Positions 6,888 through 12,865 of a DNA stretch of 64,000 nucleotides are shown here, one piece after another. The notes beneath the pieces are model-generated. The model had not been told where the DNA came from. It was given only the letters and a program-made list of their open reading frames with translations, and did no database searches. Every line of letters begins with the position of its first letter. Within the stretch, counting starts at the first letter, position 1. Source of the DNA: Haloterrigena turkmenica DSM 5511 (GTDB lineage: Archaea; Halobacteriota; Halobacteria; Halobacteriales; Natrialbaceae); contig NC_013745.1 in the NCBI RefSeq assembly GCF_000025325.1, positions 310,001 to 374,000 on the forward strand, read 5' to 3'. Both the position numbers and the translations under genes were made by a program.

Positions 6888-8831
6888 ATGACCGATATTG
6901 GAGGCTTTCAGGACCACGTTGCACGAATCGACCTCGGAAACGACGACGTCGCGTACGAAGGAATCGACGAGGAAGACGCGAAGAAATACATCGGGGCGCG
7001 CGGCCTCGGTGTGAAATACGTCTTCGAACAGGGATCGGACGTCGACCCGCTCGGTCCCGACAATCTACTGGCGTTCATGAACGGCCCGCTGTCGGGAACG
7101 CAGGTGACGATGAGCGGCCGAATCGCCGTCTGTACGAAGTCACCCTTGACCGGGACCGTTACCGACAGTCACCACGGCGGCTGGTCGGGCGCTCGCCTGA
7201 AGTGGGCCGGCTTCGACGGGCTCCTGTTCGAAGGGCAGGCCGATGACCCCGTCTACGCCGTCGTCGAGGATGGCGCGGTCGAACTCCGGGACGCGTCCCA
7301 CCTCTGGGGGAAAGGCGTCCACGAGACCTGCGAGACGATCGAGGACGAAGTCGAGGGCTCGTACGGCAAGAACCTCTCGATCATGGCGATCGGCCCTGGT
7401 GGTGAGAACGAGGTCCGATACGCCTGTATCATGAACGAAGACGACCGGGCCTCCGGTCGCGGTGGGACCGGTTGCGTGATGGGCAACAAACGGCTGAAGG
7501 CGATCGTCATCAAGTCGAGTACCGAGATGCCCCAGCCCGCGGATCCGGAAACGTTCCGCGAGGGCCACCAGCAGGCGATGAAGGCGATCACCGAGTCGGA
7601 CGTCACTGCGCCCAACGAGGGCGGTCTCTCGATGTACGGGACGAACGTTCTGATGAACCTCACGGAGGAAATGGACGGTCACCCGACCAAGAACGGGCGA
7701 TACACCTCCGCGATCTCGTACAACGAGCACGAGACGGATCGACCGAAGGATCTCGACGCCGAACGCATCAGCGGCGAAAACGTCCGCGAGAACATCTTGG
7801 TCGACGAACCCACGTGTCACTCTTGTCCGGTCGCCTGTAAGAAGGAGGTCGAAGTCGACGTGATGCACAAGGGCGAGGAGCTGAACGTCCGGATGGAGTC
7901 CTTCGAGTACGAGTCCGCCTGGGCGCTCGGGACGAACTCCGCCAACGACGACCGGGACAAGATCGCCGTGATGATCGACCGCTGTAACGACATGGGCCTC
8001 GACACCATCGAGATAGGCAACATCATGGCGATGGCTATGGACGCGACCGAAAAGGGCTATCTCGACGACGTGGACGACGGGCTCGACTGGGGCGACGCGG
8101 AGACGATGATCGACATGATCGAGCGCGTCGCTCATCGCGAGGACGACCTCGCCGACCTCCTCGCACGAGGCCAGGCGCGGATGGCCGACGAAATCGACGC
8201 TCACGACTGCCGACTCGACGTGAAAGGCCAGTCCATCGCCGCGTACGACCCCCGCTGTATGAAGGGAATGGGGATCGGCTACGCGACCTCGAACCGCGGG
8301 GCCTGTCATCTGCGGGGCTACACGCCCGCCGCGGAGATCCTGGGCATCCCCGAGAAGGTCGATCCCTACGAGTACGAAGGGAAGGGCGAACTCACCGCCC
8401 AGTTCCAGGACCTCCACGCCATCAGCGACTCGTTCGACATCTGCAAGTTCAACGCCTTCGCGGAGGGCATCGAGGAGTACGTCACCCAGTACAACGGGAT
8501 GACCGGGCTGGAGTACACCGAGGAAGACCTGCTCGAGTGCGGCGAACGAGTCTATAACCTCGAGCGCTACTACAACAACCTCGTCGGCTTCGACGGCGAC
8601 GACGACTCGCTGCCCGAGGTGTTCCTCGAAGAAGGCGAGACGCCGGGTCAGGGCGCCTCGGAGGGCGAATACTGCGAACTCGAGGAGATGAAGGAAGAGT
8701 ATTACGACCACCGCGGCTGGGTCGACGGCGTCGTCCCCGACGAGAAACTCGACGAGCTCGAAATCGAGATCGGTCCCGGTACCGGTGTCAGCGACGGTGG
8801 AAGTGGGGCAGCGGTTCCGTCCGACGACTGA
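6888..8831 (+). CDS. Aldehyde:ferredoxin oxidoreductase family protein (intact cluster motif)
   Basis: A 647-aa tungsten-pterin oxidoreductase of the AOR family, expected to oxidise aldehydes to acids with ferredoxin as acceptor. Visible are the N-terminal pterin-binding segment (GARGLGVKY), the SGRGGTGCVMGNKRLKA loop, and all four [4Fe-4S] ligands: C310, C313 and C317 in CHSCPVAC, and C519 in DICKFNAF. The C-terminus is an acidic, Gly/Ser-rich tail. It follows the HalOD1 gene by 21 bp. The substrate is not predictable from sequence. Compare the second AOR at 37667, which lacks the first three cysteines. Confidence 0.9.
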   Translation: MTDIGGFQDHVARIDLGNDDVAYEGIDEEDAKKYIGARGLGVKYVFEQGSDVDPLGPDNLLAFMNGPLSGTQVTMSGRIAVCTKSPLTGTVTDSHHGGWSGARLKWAGFDGLLFEGQADDPVYAVVEDGAVELRDASHLWGKGVHETCETIEDEVEGSYGKNLSIMAIGPGGENEVRYACIMNEDDRASGRGGTGCVMGNKRLKAIVIKSSTEMPQPADPETFREGHQQAMKAITESDVTAPNEGGLSMYGTNVLMNLTEEMDGHPTKNGRYTSAISYNEHETDRPKDLDAERISGENVRENILVDEPTCHSCPVACKKEVEVDVMHKGEELNVRMESFEYESAWALGTNSANDDRDKIAVMIDRCNDMGLDTIEIGNIMAMAMDATEKGYLDDVDDGLDWGDAETMIDMIERVAHREDDLADLLARGQARMADEIDAHDCRLDVKGQSIAAYDPRCMKGMGIGYATSNRGACHLRGYTPAAEILGIPEKVDPYEYEGKGELTAQFQDLHAISDSFDICKFNAFAEGIEEYVTQYNGMTGLEYTEEDLLECGERVYNLERYYNNLVGFDGDDDSLPEVFLEEGETPGQGASEGEYCELEEMKEEYYDHRGWVDGVVPDEKLDELEIEIGPGTGVSDGGSGAAVPSDD

Positions 8832-8942
8832 CGAAACGACCGACGGATTCCTCGCGGTCTCGAACGGCATTCACGAAGTCCTCACGAGCGCGACCTCGAA
8901 CGCCTTCTACCGAATTCGTCGAAGTTGGGAGAACGGACGGCG

Positions 8943-9616
8943 ATGCCTATCAGAGCGTTCGCCGTCCGGTTCCACCAGACTAGTTGTTCGCTCCGAGAGA
9001 TACAAGCGATTCTTCGCTCACTCGGCGTCGAACGCTCTCATCAAGCACTCTGGCACTGAGTATATCGGCTTGCTGACAGCGTGTCAGACCCGCCGACGCC
9101 CACGAGAGCAACGCTCTCGTGCGGCCGCTTGGAGCGCAAAGCGCTCCACTGGTCGGCGAATCTTCGATTCGCCTCGACAACAGAACGCAACGCGTTCTGC
9201 GGACGGCACGCCGTCGCAGGTCGCGGTTGATGAAATCGCTGACAGGATTAACGGTGACCAATCTTGTGGGTGTTCTACAATAATCCTTGACATAGGCTAC
9301 GTTTCTACATGGACTCACCGAGAAACACGATCTCTCTGATGCTGAATTTCTCGTTGATGGTGCTGGATATCTAACTACCCTCTCTCGATTAGGAGTAAGC
9401 GGCCACCTCGACTGTGTCGATCGAAACCGCATTGAAAAGTGGTTTCAGACCCTCAAAATGCGGATCGACCGCTTCCATGACTCCTGGGTCGGCAGTCGGG
9501 CGAGCGGCAGAGAATTGCTTGAACAGATTGTACACTACTATAACATACAACGACCGCACCAGTCACTCGACAGACAATCGCCAGCGGAGGTGCCAAACGA
9601 CACCGGGCCGCTGTGA
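8943..9616 (+). pseudogene. Decayed IS6-family transposase with hairpin-array insertion
   Basis: Translated pieces match a haloarchaeal IS6-type DDE transposase: RAFAVRFHQTSCSLREIQAI, LGVERSHQALWH then a stop (TGA where a Trp codon is expected), YRLADSVSDPP, VAVDEIADRINGD, LTEKHDLSDAEFLVD, and DRNRIEKWFQTLKMRIDRFH to NIQRPHQSL. The VAVDE frame is offset by one from the upstream frame, and the central part after INGD is scrambled. Between SDPPT and VAVDE sits about 115 bp of consecutive short hairpins, listed separately. The element is inactive. Terminal inverted repeats were not identified. Confidence 0.82.
9101..9215. repeat. Array of five perfect short hairpins
   Basis: Five palindromes stand in line: 9101-9121, 9131-9147, 9155-9173, 9181-9199 and 9202-9215. 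Each has a perfect stem of 6-9 bp and a loop of 2-3 bases, with 2-9 bp between units. The units differ in sequence, so this is not a simple tandem repeat. The array lies inside the IS6-type transposase relic. Confidence 0.85.
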
Positions 9617-9635
9617 ATCACCCATCCGGATCGCT

Positions 9636-10507: not shown

Positions 10508-12865
10508 TCACTCCGTTCTTCGCGACTCGAGGAGCAGCTTCTGCTCGACGCGCTTGACCTCGTGCTGGACGTCGCGGACGGCGTCGATGTTCGCGGAGAT
10601 GGACGTGACCCCTTCCGTGGCGAGGAACCGGACCATCTCGGGTTTCGAGCCGGCCTGGCCGCAGATGCTGGTGTCGACGTCGTATTCGCGGCAGGTCTCG
10701 ATGACGTCGCCGATCAGCCGCAAAACGGCAGGGTGGAGTTCGTCGAAGCGGTCGGCGACGTTTTCGTTGTTCCGATCGACGGCCAGCGTGTACTGGGTGA
10801 GGTCGTTGGTGCCGAAGGAGGCGAAGTCGATACCTGCCTCGATCAGCTCTTCGACCGCCAGCGCCGCGGCCGGCGTCTCGATCATCGCGCCCCAGCGGCG
10901 CTTCTCGGGGTCGATGCCAGCCTCCTTCATGAGCGACTTGGCCTGGTAGATGTCCTCCGCGTCGTTGACCAGCGGGAACATGATCTCGACGTTGTCGTAG
11001 CCCATCTCGTAGAGCCGCCGAAACGCCTCGAGTTCGTGGGCGAAGACGTCGGGTCGATCGAGCGACCGGCGGATGCCACGGTAGCCGAGCATCGGGTTGT
11101 GCTCCTCGGGTTCGTTCTCCCCGCCCTCGAGCTGGCGGAACTCGTCGGTCGGCGCGTCCAGCGTCCGGACGCGGACGGGACGCGGGTAGAACTCGTCGGC
11201 GACGCCGCGGATGCCGTCGATCAGTTCCTGCGTGTAGGCGTCGGTGCCGTTCTCTTCGATGAACTTCTCGGGCGTCTGGTTCAGCGAGAGGATCATGTGT
11301 TCGGTCCGAAGGAGACCGACGCCGTCGGCGCCGGTCGCGGCCGCGCGCTCGGCGGCCTCCGGGATCGAGACGTTGACCTTCACCTCCGTCGCGGTCATGG
11401 GCTTGACCGGCGACTGCGGCCGGACCTCCTCGACGGGTTCGGTCTCTTCGTCGGGTTCGACTTCCTTGCCCTCGAGGACTGCGCCCTTGTCGCCGTCGAG
11501 CGTGACGAGTTGCCCGTCCTTGAGGACGGAGGTAGCATTGGTGGTGCCGACGATAGCCGGAACGCCCAGTTCGCGCGAGACGATGGCGGCGTGGCTGGTC
11601 ATGCCGCCCTCGTCGGTGACGATCCCTGCCGCGCGTTTCATCGCAGGGACCATGTCCGGCATCGTCATCTCGGTGACGATGATGTCGCCCTCGCCGACCT
11701 TCGCGAGGTCGTCGAGTTTCGTGACGATCCGGGCCGGTCCGCTGACCGTCCCCGGACTCGAGCCCAACCCGTCGACGATGACCTCGCCGGCGCCGTTTGC
11801 CCCCGAATCCGAACCCGGACTCGAGCTCGCGCCGCTGGCGCCGGCGCTCTGAACGCCGCCGCTACCGTCGGTCACCCCTTTCGAGACGTCAAAACTACCG
11901 GTTTCGGTCGCCGCGTCGCCGCCCTCGTCGATGGTGGTGATCGGCCGGGACTGGAGCATGTAGACCTCGTCCTCAACGATAGCCCATTCGACATCCTGTG
12001 GTTCGTCATAGTGGTCCTCGACGCGCTCGCCGAGATCAACCAGCGCGCCGATCTCGTCGTCGGCGAGGACTCGTTCGTTCCGTTTCTCTTGGGGAACCTC
12101 GCGCTCGACGGTCTCGCCGGTTTCTTCGTCTTTCTCGTGCATCACCTTCTTCTCGGCGACGGTGACGTCGACCGAGCGGTCGTCGCGCTCGACGACGTAG
12201 TTATCCGGCGAGACGGCACCGGAGACGACGGCCTCGCCCAGGCCCCAGGCGCCCTCGATGATCATCGTCTGGTCGCCCGTCGAGGGGTGGCTCGTGAACA
12301 TCACGCCCGACTTCTCGGCGTCGACCATCTGCTGGACGACGACCGCGATGTTGACCACCGAGTGGTCGAAGCCCTGCTCTTGGCGGTAGTAGATCGCCCG
12401 CTGGGTAAAGAGCGAGGCCCAGCACTCGCGAACGCGGTCGAGCAGCGCCTCCTCGGTGACGTTGAGGAACGTCTCCTGTTGGCCCGCGAAGGAGGCGTCG
12501 GGCAGGTCCTCGGCCGTCGCCGACGACCGCACCGCGACGAACGCCTCGCCGTCGCCGACCTGCCGATACGACTCGAGGATCTCCTCGCGGAGTTCGTCGG
12601 GGAAGGGGGTCTCGAGGATGAGTTCCTGCGCGCGGTCGGCGGCGTCGGCCAGTGCCGCCGAGTCGTCGGCGTCGACGTCGACGGCCGCGAACAGTTCCTC
12701 GTCGATTTCGGCCGCTTCGATGAACGATCGATAGGTCCCAGCGGTGACGACGAATCCCGGGGGCACGGGCAGCCCAGCACCCGTCAACTCGCCCAGGGAG
12801 GCGCCTTTACCACCGACCGTCTCGAGATCGTCGGCGCTGACCTTTTCTAACCAGAGTACAGCCAT
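10508..12865 (-). CDS. ppsA: Phosphoenolpyruvate synthase (pyruvate, water dikinase)
   Basis: A 785-aa enzyme converting pyruvate, ATP and water to PEP, AMP and phosphate. Domains: an N-terminal ATP-grasp (about 1-320); a low-complexity Gly/Ser linker (about 325-365) that looks haloarchaeal; a swivelling phosphohistidine domain with GGMTSHAAIVSRELGVPAI, where His425 is the phosphorylated residue; and a PEP-binding TIM barrel ending in the catalytic-Cys motif CGQAGSKPEMV. The ATG at 12865 gives the normal N-terminus (MAVLWLEKVSADD). It supplies PEP for gluconeogenesis from pyruvate- or serine-yielding substrates, which suits the catabolic genes in this window. PEP carboxylase lies upstream, divergently transcribed. 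Confidence 0.95.
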   Translation of the reverse strand: MAVLWLEKVSADDLETVGGKGASLGELTGAGLPVPPGFVVTAGTYRSFIEAAEIDEELFAAVDVDADDSAALADAADRAQELILETPFPDELREEILESYRQVGDGEAFVAVRSSATAEDLPDASFAGQQETFLNVTEEALLDRVRECWASLFTQRAIYYRQEQGFDHSVVNIAVVVQQMVDAEKSGVMFTSHPSTGDQTMIIEGAWGLGEAVVSGAVSPDNYVVERDDRSVDVTVAEKKVMHEKDEETGETVEREVPQEKRNERVLADDEIGALVDLGERVEDHYDEPQDVEWAIVEDEVYMLQSRPITTIDEGGDAATETGSFDVSKGVTDGSGGVQSAGASGASSSPGSDSGANGAGEVIVDGLGSSPGTVSGPARIVTKLDDLAKVGEGDIIVTEMTMPDMVPAMKRAAGIVTDEGGMTSHAAIVSRELGVPAIVGTTNATSVLKDGQLVTLDGDKGAVLEGKEVEPDEETEPVEEVRPQSPVKPMTATEVKVNVSIPEAAERAAATGADGVGLLRTEHMILSLNQTPEKFIEENGTDAYTQELIDGIRGVADEFYPRPVRVRTLDAPTDEFRQLEGGENEPEEHNPMLGYRGIRRSLDRPDVFAHELEAFRRLYEMGYDNVEIMFPLVNDAEDIYQAKSLMKEAGIDPEKRRWGAMIETPAAALAVEELIEAGIDFASFGTNDLTQYTLAVDRNNENVADRFDELHPAVLRLIGDVIETCREYDVDTSICGQAGSKPEMVRFLATEGVTSISANIDAVRDVQHEVKRVEQKLLLESRRTE

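Follow-up and report, generated by a model that had tools for sequence, protein, structure and literature searches.

The closest known counterparts of the elements described here are the CGTC-tagged REPs, which, in the sections of the published account used here (PMC3733652, Di Nocera et al. 2013), are hairpins of 8 to 9 bp with an outward CGTC tag, loops of 4 to 5 nt and AT at the stem base, mostly arranged as head-to-head pairs and rarely clustered. Those sections report them from five bacterial phyla, including the RPE-4 and RPE-6 repeats of Rickettsia, place some of them inside genes and palindromes, and give no known transposase or mobiliser for them; REPIN/RAYT systems are there assigned GTAG tags and a RAYT. 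Two further groups come from Haloquadratum walsbyi, as far as described in the relevant part of PMC3119063. PATEs are gene-less, with near-terminal palindromes, ends that are those of IS605-type transposons, no target duplication and terminal-only forms of 52 bp. SMR-A elements (HqIRS42/43/55) are about 110 bp long, have prominent terminal inverted repeats, make no target duplication and lie within IS605/PATE palindromes. In the passages of PMC6006769 that bear on this point, only IS200-type TnpA (subclass 1.1) is reported in Archaea.

The hairpin train analysed here lies in a 64-kb stretch of DNA (the window). We think it likely that it consists of two nested, gene-less palindromic insertion elements, and that the outer one belongs to a haloarchaea-wide family resembling REP dimers (REPINs) with outward CGTC-like tags. 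The layout of this outer unit, two hairpins with what appear to be outward CGTC-like tags, equals the head-to-head dimer of the CGTC-tagged REPs, including RPE-4 and RPE-6, and as in REPIN/RAYT systems two inverted hairpins make up one small dispersed unit. Stem length also fits, being mostly 8 to 10 bp, whereas only 10 of 126 stems start with AT, loops are of 3 nt in the conserved units, head-to-tail trains occur and the hosts are archaeal. Since loop length and stem base differ, membership in the CGTC-tagged REPs, as characterised in the cited sections, is not claimed, and the haloarchaeal units are best described as appearing to resemble them. The earlier note on this sequence had likened the train to interspersed palindromic elements of bacteria, and RPE-4 and RPE-6 come close to that comparison.

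A hairpin train within an IS6-family transposase relic

Five palindromes had been described in the earlier note as standing almost end to end at 9101-9215, and a hairpin scan of the window finds all five perfect. Hairpin 1 (9101-9121; 9 bp, loop AAC; CACGAGAGC-AAC-GCTCTCGTG) and hairpin 4 (9181-9199; 8 bp, loop AAC; CAGAACGC-AAC-GCGTTCTG) are hairpins A and B of the outer unit, and hairpin 2 (9130-9148; 8 bp, loop AAA) and hairpin 3 (9155-9173; 8 bp, loop TTC; GGCGAATC-TTC-GATTCGCC) are the first and second of the inner unit. Hairpin 5 (9202-9215; 6 bp, 2-base loop) is native to the transposase gene and marks the insertion site, a GACGGC-type hairpin in most array-free copies. The five are preceded by a short hairpin at 9073-9087, also native transposase sequence, with a similar hairpin in one array-free copy (L019).

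The train is the sole cluster of at least three hairpins in the window (arms of at least 6, loops of 2 to 5) and, in an 800-kb sample of its own genome, the only group of four (arms of at least 7, loops of 2 to 4), the chromosome sample also holding two clusters of three; five first-order Markov shuffles per sampled stretch contained no cluster of four or more. The folding z-score of 9066-9220 is -5.8, and none of 200 shuffles folded as well. Chance or simple decay as the origin of the train was rejected on the z-score and the Markov shuffles, which bears out the view already taken from the sequence that decay is an unlikely source. Hairpins of 8 bp with 3-nt loops are only about twofold in excess in the genome samples, and several other loop lengths behave alike, indicating a specific element class rather than a general tendency. 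Template switching during replication (fold-back synthesis) could also create hairpins in situ, a process to which perfect stems and 3-nt loops would be natural; at the gene-end loci L071 and L077 the neighbouring hairpin does resemble local sequence. The same stems and linkers, however, occur at unrelated places in many genomes, which led us to reject an in-place origin for the window array and makes this reading extremely improbable. The neighbouring genes, at window positions 6888-8831 and 10508-12865, encode an aldehyde ferredoxin oxidoreductase and a phosphoenolpyruvate synthase.

The host gene is a transposase relic on the + strand at 8942..9617, delimited by alignment with the intact copies L006, L008, L022 and L025; it is split by the insert and further decayed, with a stretch near 9289 missing relative to those copies. 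Its own genome holds many matching places, and the protein of the intact relative L006 scores as an IS6 family transposase (199.8 bits, cut-off 125). In the alignment the array falls between CCGCCGACG and the remainder of the native hairpin. By alignment and copy comparison the insert is about 107 nt long and occupies 9099..9205 (+), preceded by a GACG at 9095..9098 (+) that is present in array-free copies; assigning this GACG to the other side would place the insert at 9095-9201. The right end of the outer unit, GGACG, lies at 9201..9205 (+). The inner unit, about 51 nt from the difference between four- and two-hairpin lengths, sits in the linker of the outer one at 9127..9177 (+), its ends uncertain by a few bases.

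Comparison with other IS6 copies shows that the segment is absent from 36 of 52 distinct copies, is represented by a two-hairpin version in 7, and is present with four hairpins in 9, the window included; because the loci were fetched by resemblance to the window or its hairpins, these counts are a non-random sample and not frequencies. The 52 comprise 51 copies found in fetched loci, fragments lacking either half being left out, and the window copy, added by hand. Two-hairpin copies are longer by 55/56 nt, which hold the hairpins or their remains, and four-hairpin copies by 106/107 nt (tblastn spacing; alignment for the window). The possibility that the segment is ordinary coding sequence of the family was thereby rejected. 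These data uphold two earlier proposals, that the host is an IS6-type transposase relic and that a palindromic element has been inserted, the stems recurring as units in other genes and other haloarchaea; the refuting condition named with them, that all members of the family carry the segment, does not hold. The insertion covers the four hairpins within 9101-9199, and the fifth, at 9202-9215, belongs to the gene. As none of the insert lengths is divisible by three, the encoded peptide CGRLERKALHWSAN is probably meaningless, and the resulting frameshift should inactivate the IS6 transposase.

A GACGGC-type native hairpin is found in 22 of the 36 array-free copies, a different hairpin in 1, and none with arms of at least 6 in 13. 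The native hairpin varies with compensation among array-free copies (CGACGGC / CGAGGGC / GACAGC), a pattern suggestive of a structural role.

On a transposase tree built with the insert removed, the three insert states are scattered, requiring 14 changes against a mean of 15.0 for shuffled labels, with as few changes in 52 of 200 shuffles. The AU test rejects monophyly of the filled copies as a whole (p 3e-53), of the four-hairpin copies (4e-63) and of the two-hairpin copies (4e-36), on a tree whose bootstrap had not settled and whose branches are partly unsettled or long, one row having a long branch. Among the flank columns, none shows linkage to the insert at p<1e-3. The simplest reading is that the same IS6 hairpin was entered repeatedly, a pattern that recombination among copies could imitate. 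One ancient insertion, followed by repeated precise loss between GACG repeats or by spread through gene conversion, strikes us as quite unlikely: GACG does flank the insert on both sides, multi-copy elements recombine and the tree has the weaknesses just given, but most of the copies compared are array-free, the insertion causes a frameshift, flanks carry no linked column and the module also occupies a second IS6 site.

The outer unit, its boundaries and its relatives

Neighbouring sequence across loci gives the outer unit the layout CG/TT-hairpin A-linker-hairpin B-GGACG/ (slashes mark the ends), with a size of 55-56 nt, stems of 8-10 bp, loops of 3 nt and a short linker. The unit is present or absent as a discrete piece: between CAAGGAGCG and CAGTAGGG, L168 has 55 nt and L217 has 0 nt. 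The left flank at this site reads AGCG and the right one GACG, a difference that excludes a 4-bp target duplication there and leaves a 2-bp CG duplication possible. A strain pair differing solely by the unit was not seen, and the exact outer-unit pattern was not found in viral contigs.

The stem pattern CAGAACGC-NNN-GCGTTCTG occurs in 31 of 61 related genomes, and the reversed control pattern in none. Among 30 hits to this hairpin chosen without a GACG condition, in 19 a GACG lies no more than 3 nt away, always on a single side (background 0.10); the 11 hits without GACG within 3 nt include other hairpin combinations (L071, L077, L079, L083 and L087). In 63 distinct modules, collected with the left CG and right GACG required and in some searches with 3-nt loops only, the four bases on the left are GACG (22), GGCG (21), AGCG (8), AACG (5) or other/unparsed (7). 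The left end of the collected modules is mostly CGTT, its CG having been imposed by the collection. GNA forms the loop of hairpin A in 39 of the 63, and hairpin B loops, read from their own tag, are GNA in 24 and TNC in 21. In DNA, GNA loops are very stable when a GC pair closes them.

Beyond the window's site, modules occur at a second IS6 position (site 2), in a TnpB region overlapping the sot0042 RNA, and upstream of tnpB in L082, with strong matches near tnpA in L245 and L217. The sot0042 case is the one module copy found inside a match to Rfam RF02656 (sot0042, an RNA overlapping tnpB), where it is a 57-nt insertion relative to the consensus (L086). Insertion appears to be tolerated in some IS605/TnpB elements.

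These neighbours bring the haloarchaeal PATEs into question, which the units resemble in being gene-less, palindromic and small; at L168/L217 a 4-bp duplication is excluded and a 2-bp one possible. The hairpins might be the fused ends of a core-deleted IS605-type element, a terminal-only PATE moved by an IS200-type TnpA, as the near-terminal palindromes, absent duplication and 52-bp forms described for Haloquadratum in the cited part of PMC3119063 and the modules close to tnpA or tnpB would allow. We nevertheless regard this as unlikely. Modules lie inside several unrelated elements; an R1 scan (R1 being a covariance model of the outer unit) gave a strong match at few of 30 tnpA loci, the matches in L245 and L217 not being demonstrated outer ends; and modules are carried by all six genomes that were in both searches and gave no Y1_Tnp hit, the transposase search having used Pfam PF01797 alone, a model that does not separate RAYT from TnpA.

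A kinship with the SMR-A elements, compared by description only, seems doubtful to a similar degree. Their habit of lying within palindromes is the same and their size, as given in those parts of PMC3119063, is similar (107 nt for the nested form here, 113 nt for a tandem pair described below), but the prominent terminal inverted repeats of SMR-A speak against it, and R1 gave a single marginal hit (E 0.004) on H. walsbyi plasmid PL47, which may hold no SMR.

Distribution, trains and the inner unit

The hairpin-array models found relatives across haloarchaeal genomes, as the earlier note had proposed to check. Of 32 candidate segments for R1, ten were not used (six from four-hairpin arrays, two from L147, and L071 and L087), and L061, L064, L068 and L086 were removed as well, their stems having been shifted in the alignment; R2, the model of the nested four-hairpin form, was built from 11 four-hairpin segments without L005, L036, L050 and L055. 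R1 matches 280 of 292 haloarchaeal genomes (E<=1e-3, at most 18 candidates scored per genome), and the 30 loci taken from this search were the best-scoring ones rather than a random draw. When as many as 150 candidates were scored, R1 gave 2 to 51 hits in five of six genomes (E<=1e-6, both strands) and none in the sixth. R2 matches 31 of 242 haloarchaeal genomes (E<=1e-8). R1 matches 40 of 196 genomes drawn phylum-wide. These are 32 of the 33 listed that belong to the window's order or are nearer to it, together with 8 of the 163 others, most of these 8 at 1e-4 to 1e-6. Two matches outside the order are stronger, G449 (4e-9, 9 matches) and G352 (3e-10), and represent possible relatives outside haloarchaea.

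On plasmids, the two-hairpin query is found in 53 records and the array in 15, and those listed (the best 40 of the 53, and all 15) are haloarchaeal. Most listed plasmid matches lack an annotated feature, so the units are easily overlooked. We recognised no earlier description of them in haloarchaea in the open-licence literature.

Units also follow one another head to tail. On the Haloferax mediterranei plasmid pHME132 (L151), IS6 site 2 holds two tandem units, 113 nt in total, the second starting immediately after the terminal GACG of the first, and the same GACG join between units is seen in L171, L201 and L061. A unit that needs a GACG-like target and itself ends in GACG would build such trains unaided.

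Several further arrangements were observed. The tandem units at L151:1401-1580 break the start of the IS6 gene, and in the record the annotated transposase begins within the second unit. At L061:1316-1648, in a distant haloarchaeon (G070), 13 hairpins follow one another, some of them forming head-to-tail units. In G163 contig 1, module pairs recur with the same spacing near 478740, 799879, 2414212 and 2563090, which would fit their being part of a larger repeat that carries them.

The inner two hairpins are a second unit, found alone elsewhere and nested here in the linker of the outer one. A scan of genome contigs from 84,980 species found the core of the inner pair in 17 stretches, all titled haloarchaea, and 5 of these lie within IS6 copies. 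The pair occurs without the outer pair in L248, L251, L256 and L259; open frames behind it score as TnpB in L251 and L256, and a 150-residue piece from L248 had no family match. In all four loci it sits between the same two residues of TnpB-like frames, and the loop of its second hairpin, GTA, gives TAG in an otherwise open frame.

Proposed folded-strand recognition and spread

Stems are conserved where flanks and loops vary. Mean pairwise differences for flanks, stems, linkers and loops are, in that order, 0.32, 0.06, 0.12 and 0.53 among nine four-hairpin copies and 0.32, 0.05, 0.09 and 0.70 among seven two-hairpin copies. Pairs were counted in an alignment of the nested form (A6) that had itself been fitted to the model supplying them; its 25 distinct rows include a weak match lying on the opposite strand of the window array. 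Of the 34 pairs, 24 have changed on both sides, against a mean of 7.1 in shuffles (0 of 500 as high) and 3-8 in slid controls.

Such covariation could reflect a structured RNA under selection, an attenuator, a stabiliser or part of a guide RNA, with copies spreading because the transcript is useful, and one copy does overlap the sot0042 RNA. We hold this to be very unlikely, as copies lie in dead transposase genes and in both orientations relative to their hosts, no Rfam family covers the array, and covariation also fits folded DNA. A known RNA family was rejected in particular: over the window array (L001) there is no Rfam match, RF02656 included, and in L086 the hairpins are an insertion relative to the consensus.

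The nested-element reading is extended by the target sites. Empty sites, joined across the unit, are more foldable than 70-mers taken at random from the same loci (-4.4 vs -1.0 kcal/mol, each relative to shuffles; p = 0.002 over 29 site clusters), some of the sites abutting other modules. Together with co-varying stems and free loops, these foldable joined sites suggest that the unit is recognised as a folded strand and enters strands exposed at palindromes. On this model the unit would move as folded single-stranded or cruciform DNA, handled by an enzyme acting in trans that would recognise stems and linker and leave the loops unread. Palindromes would be preferred targets because they expose single strands, and trains would form because the unit's own end recreates the target.

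Put in full, the proposal is of a haloarchaea-wide, hairpin-seeking single-stranded DNA element without a dedicated transposase, which re-enters transposon palindromes at the same codons, silences IS6 by frameshift, recreates GACG and keeps its stems while its loops stay free. We put it forward tentatively, as possible rather than probable. If true, such an element would be a parasite of transposons or a brake on them. Easily overlooked as they are, the units can split transposase genes; one transposon hairpin appears to have been struck repeatedly, and trains may record the order of insertion. With a precisely bounded pair of filled and empty sites, a candidate target rule, the trains and the apparent repeated hits, haloarchaea make the spread of palindromes that lack a mover of their own testable.
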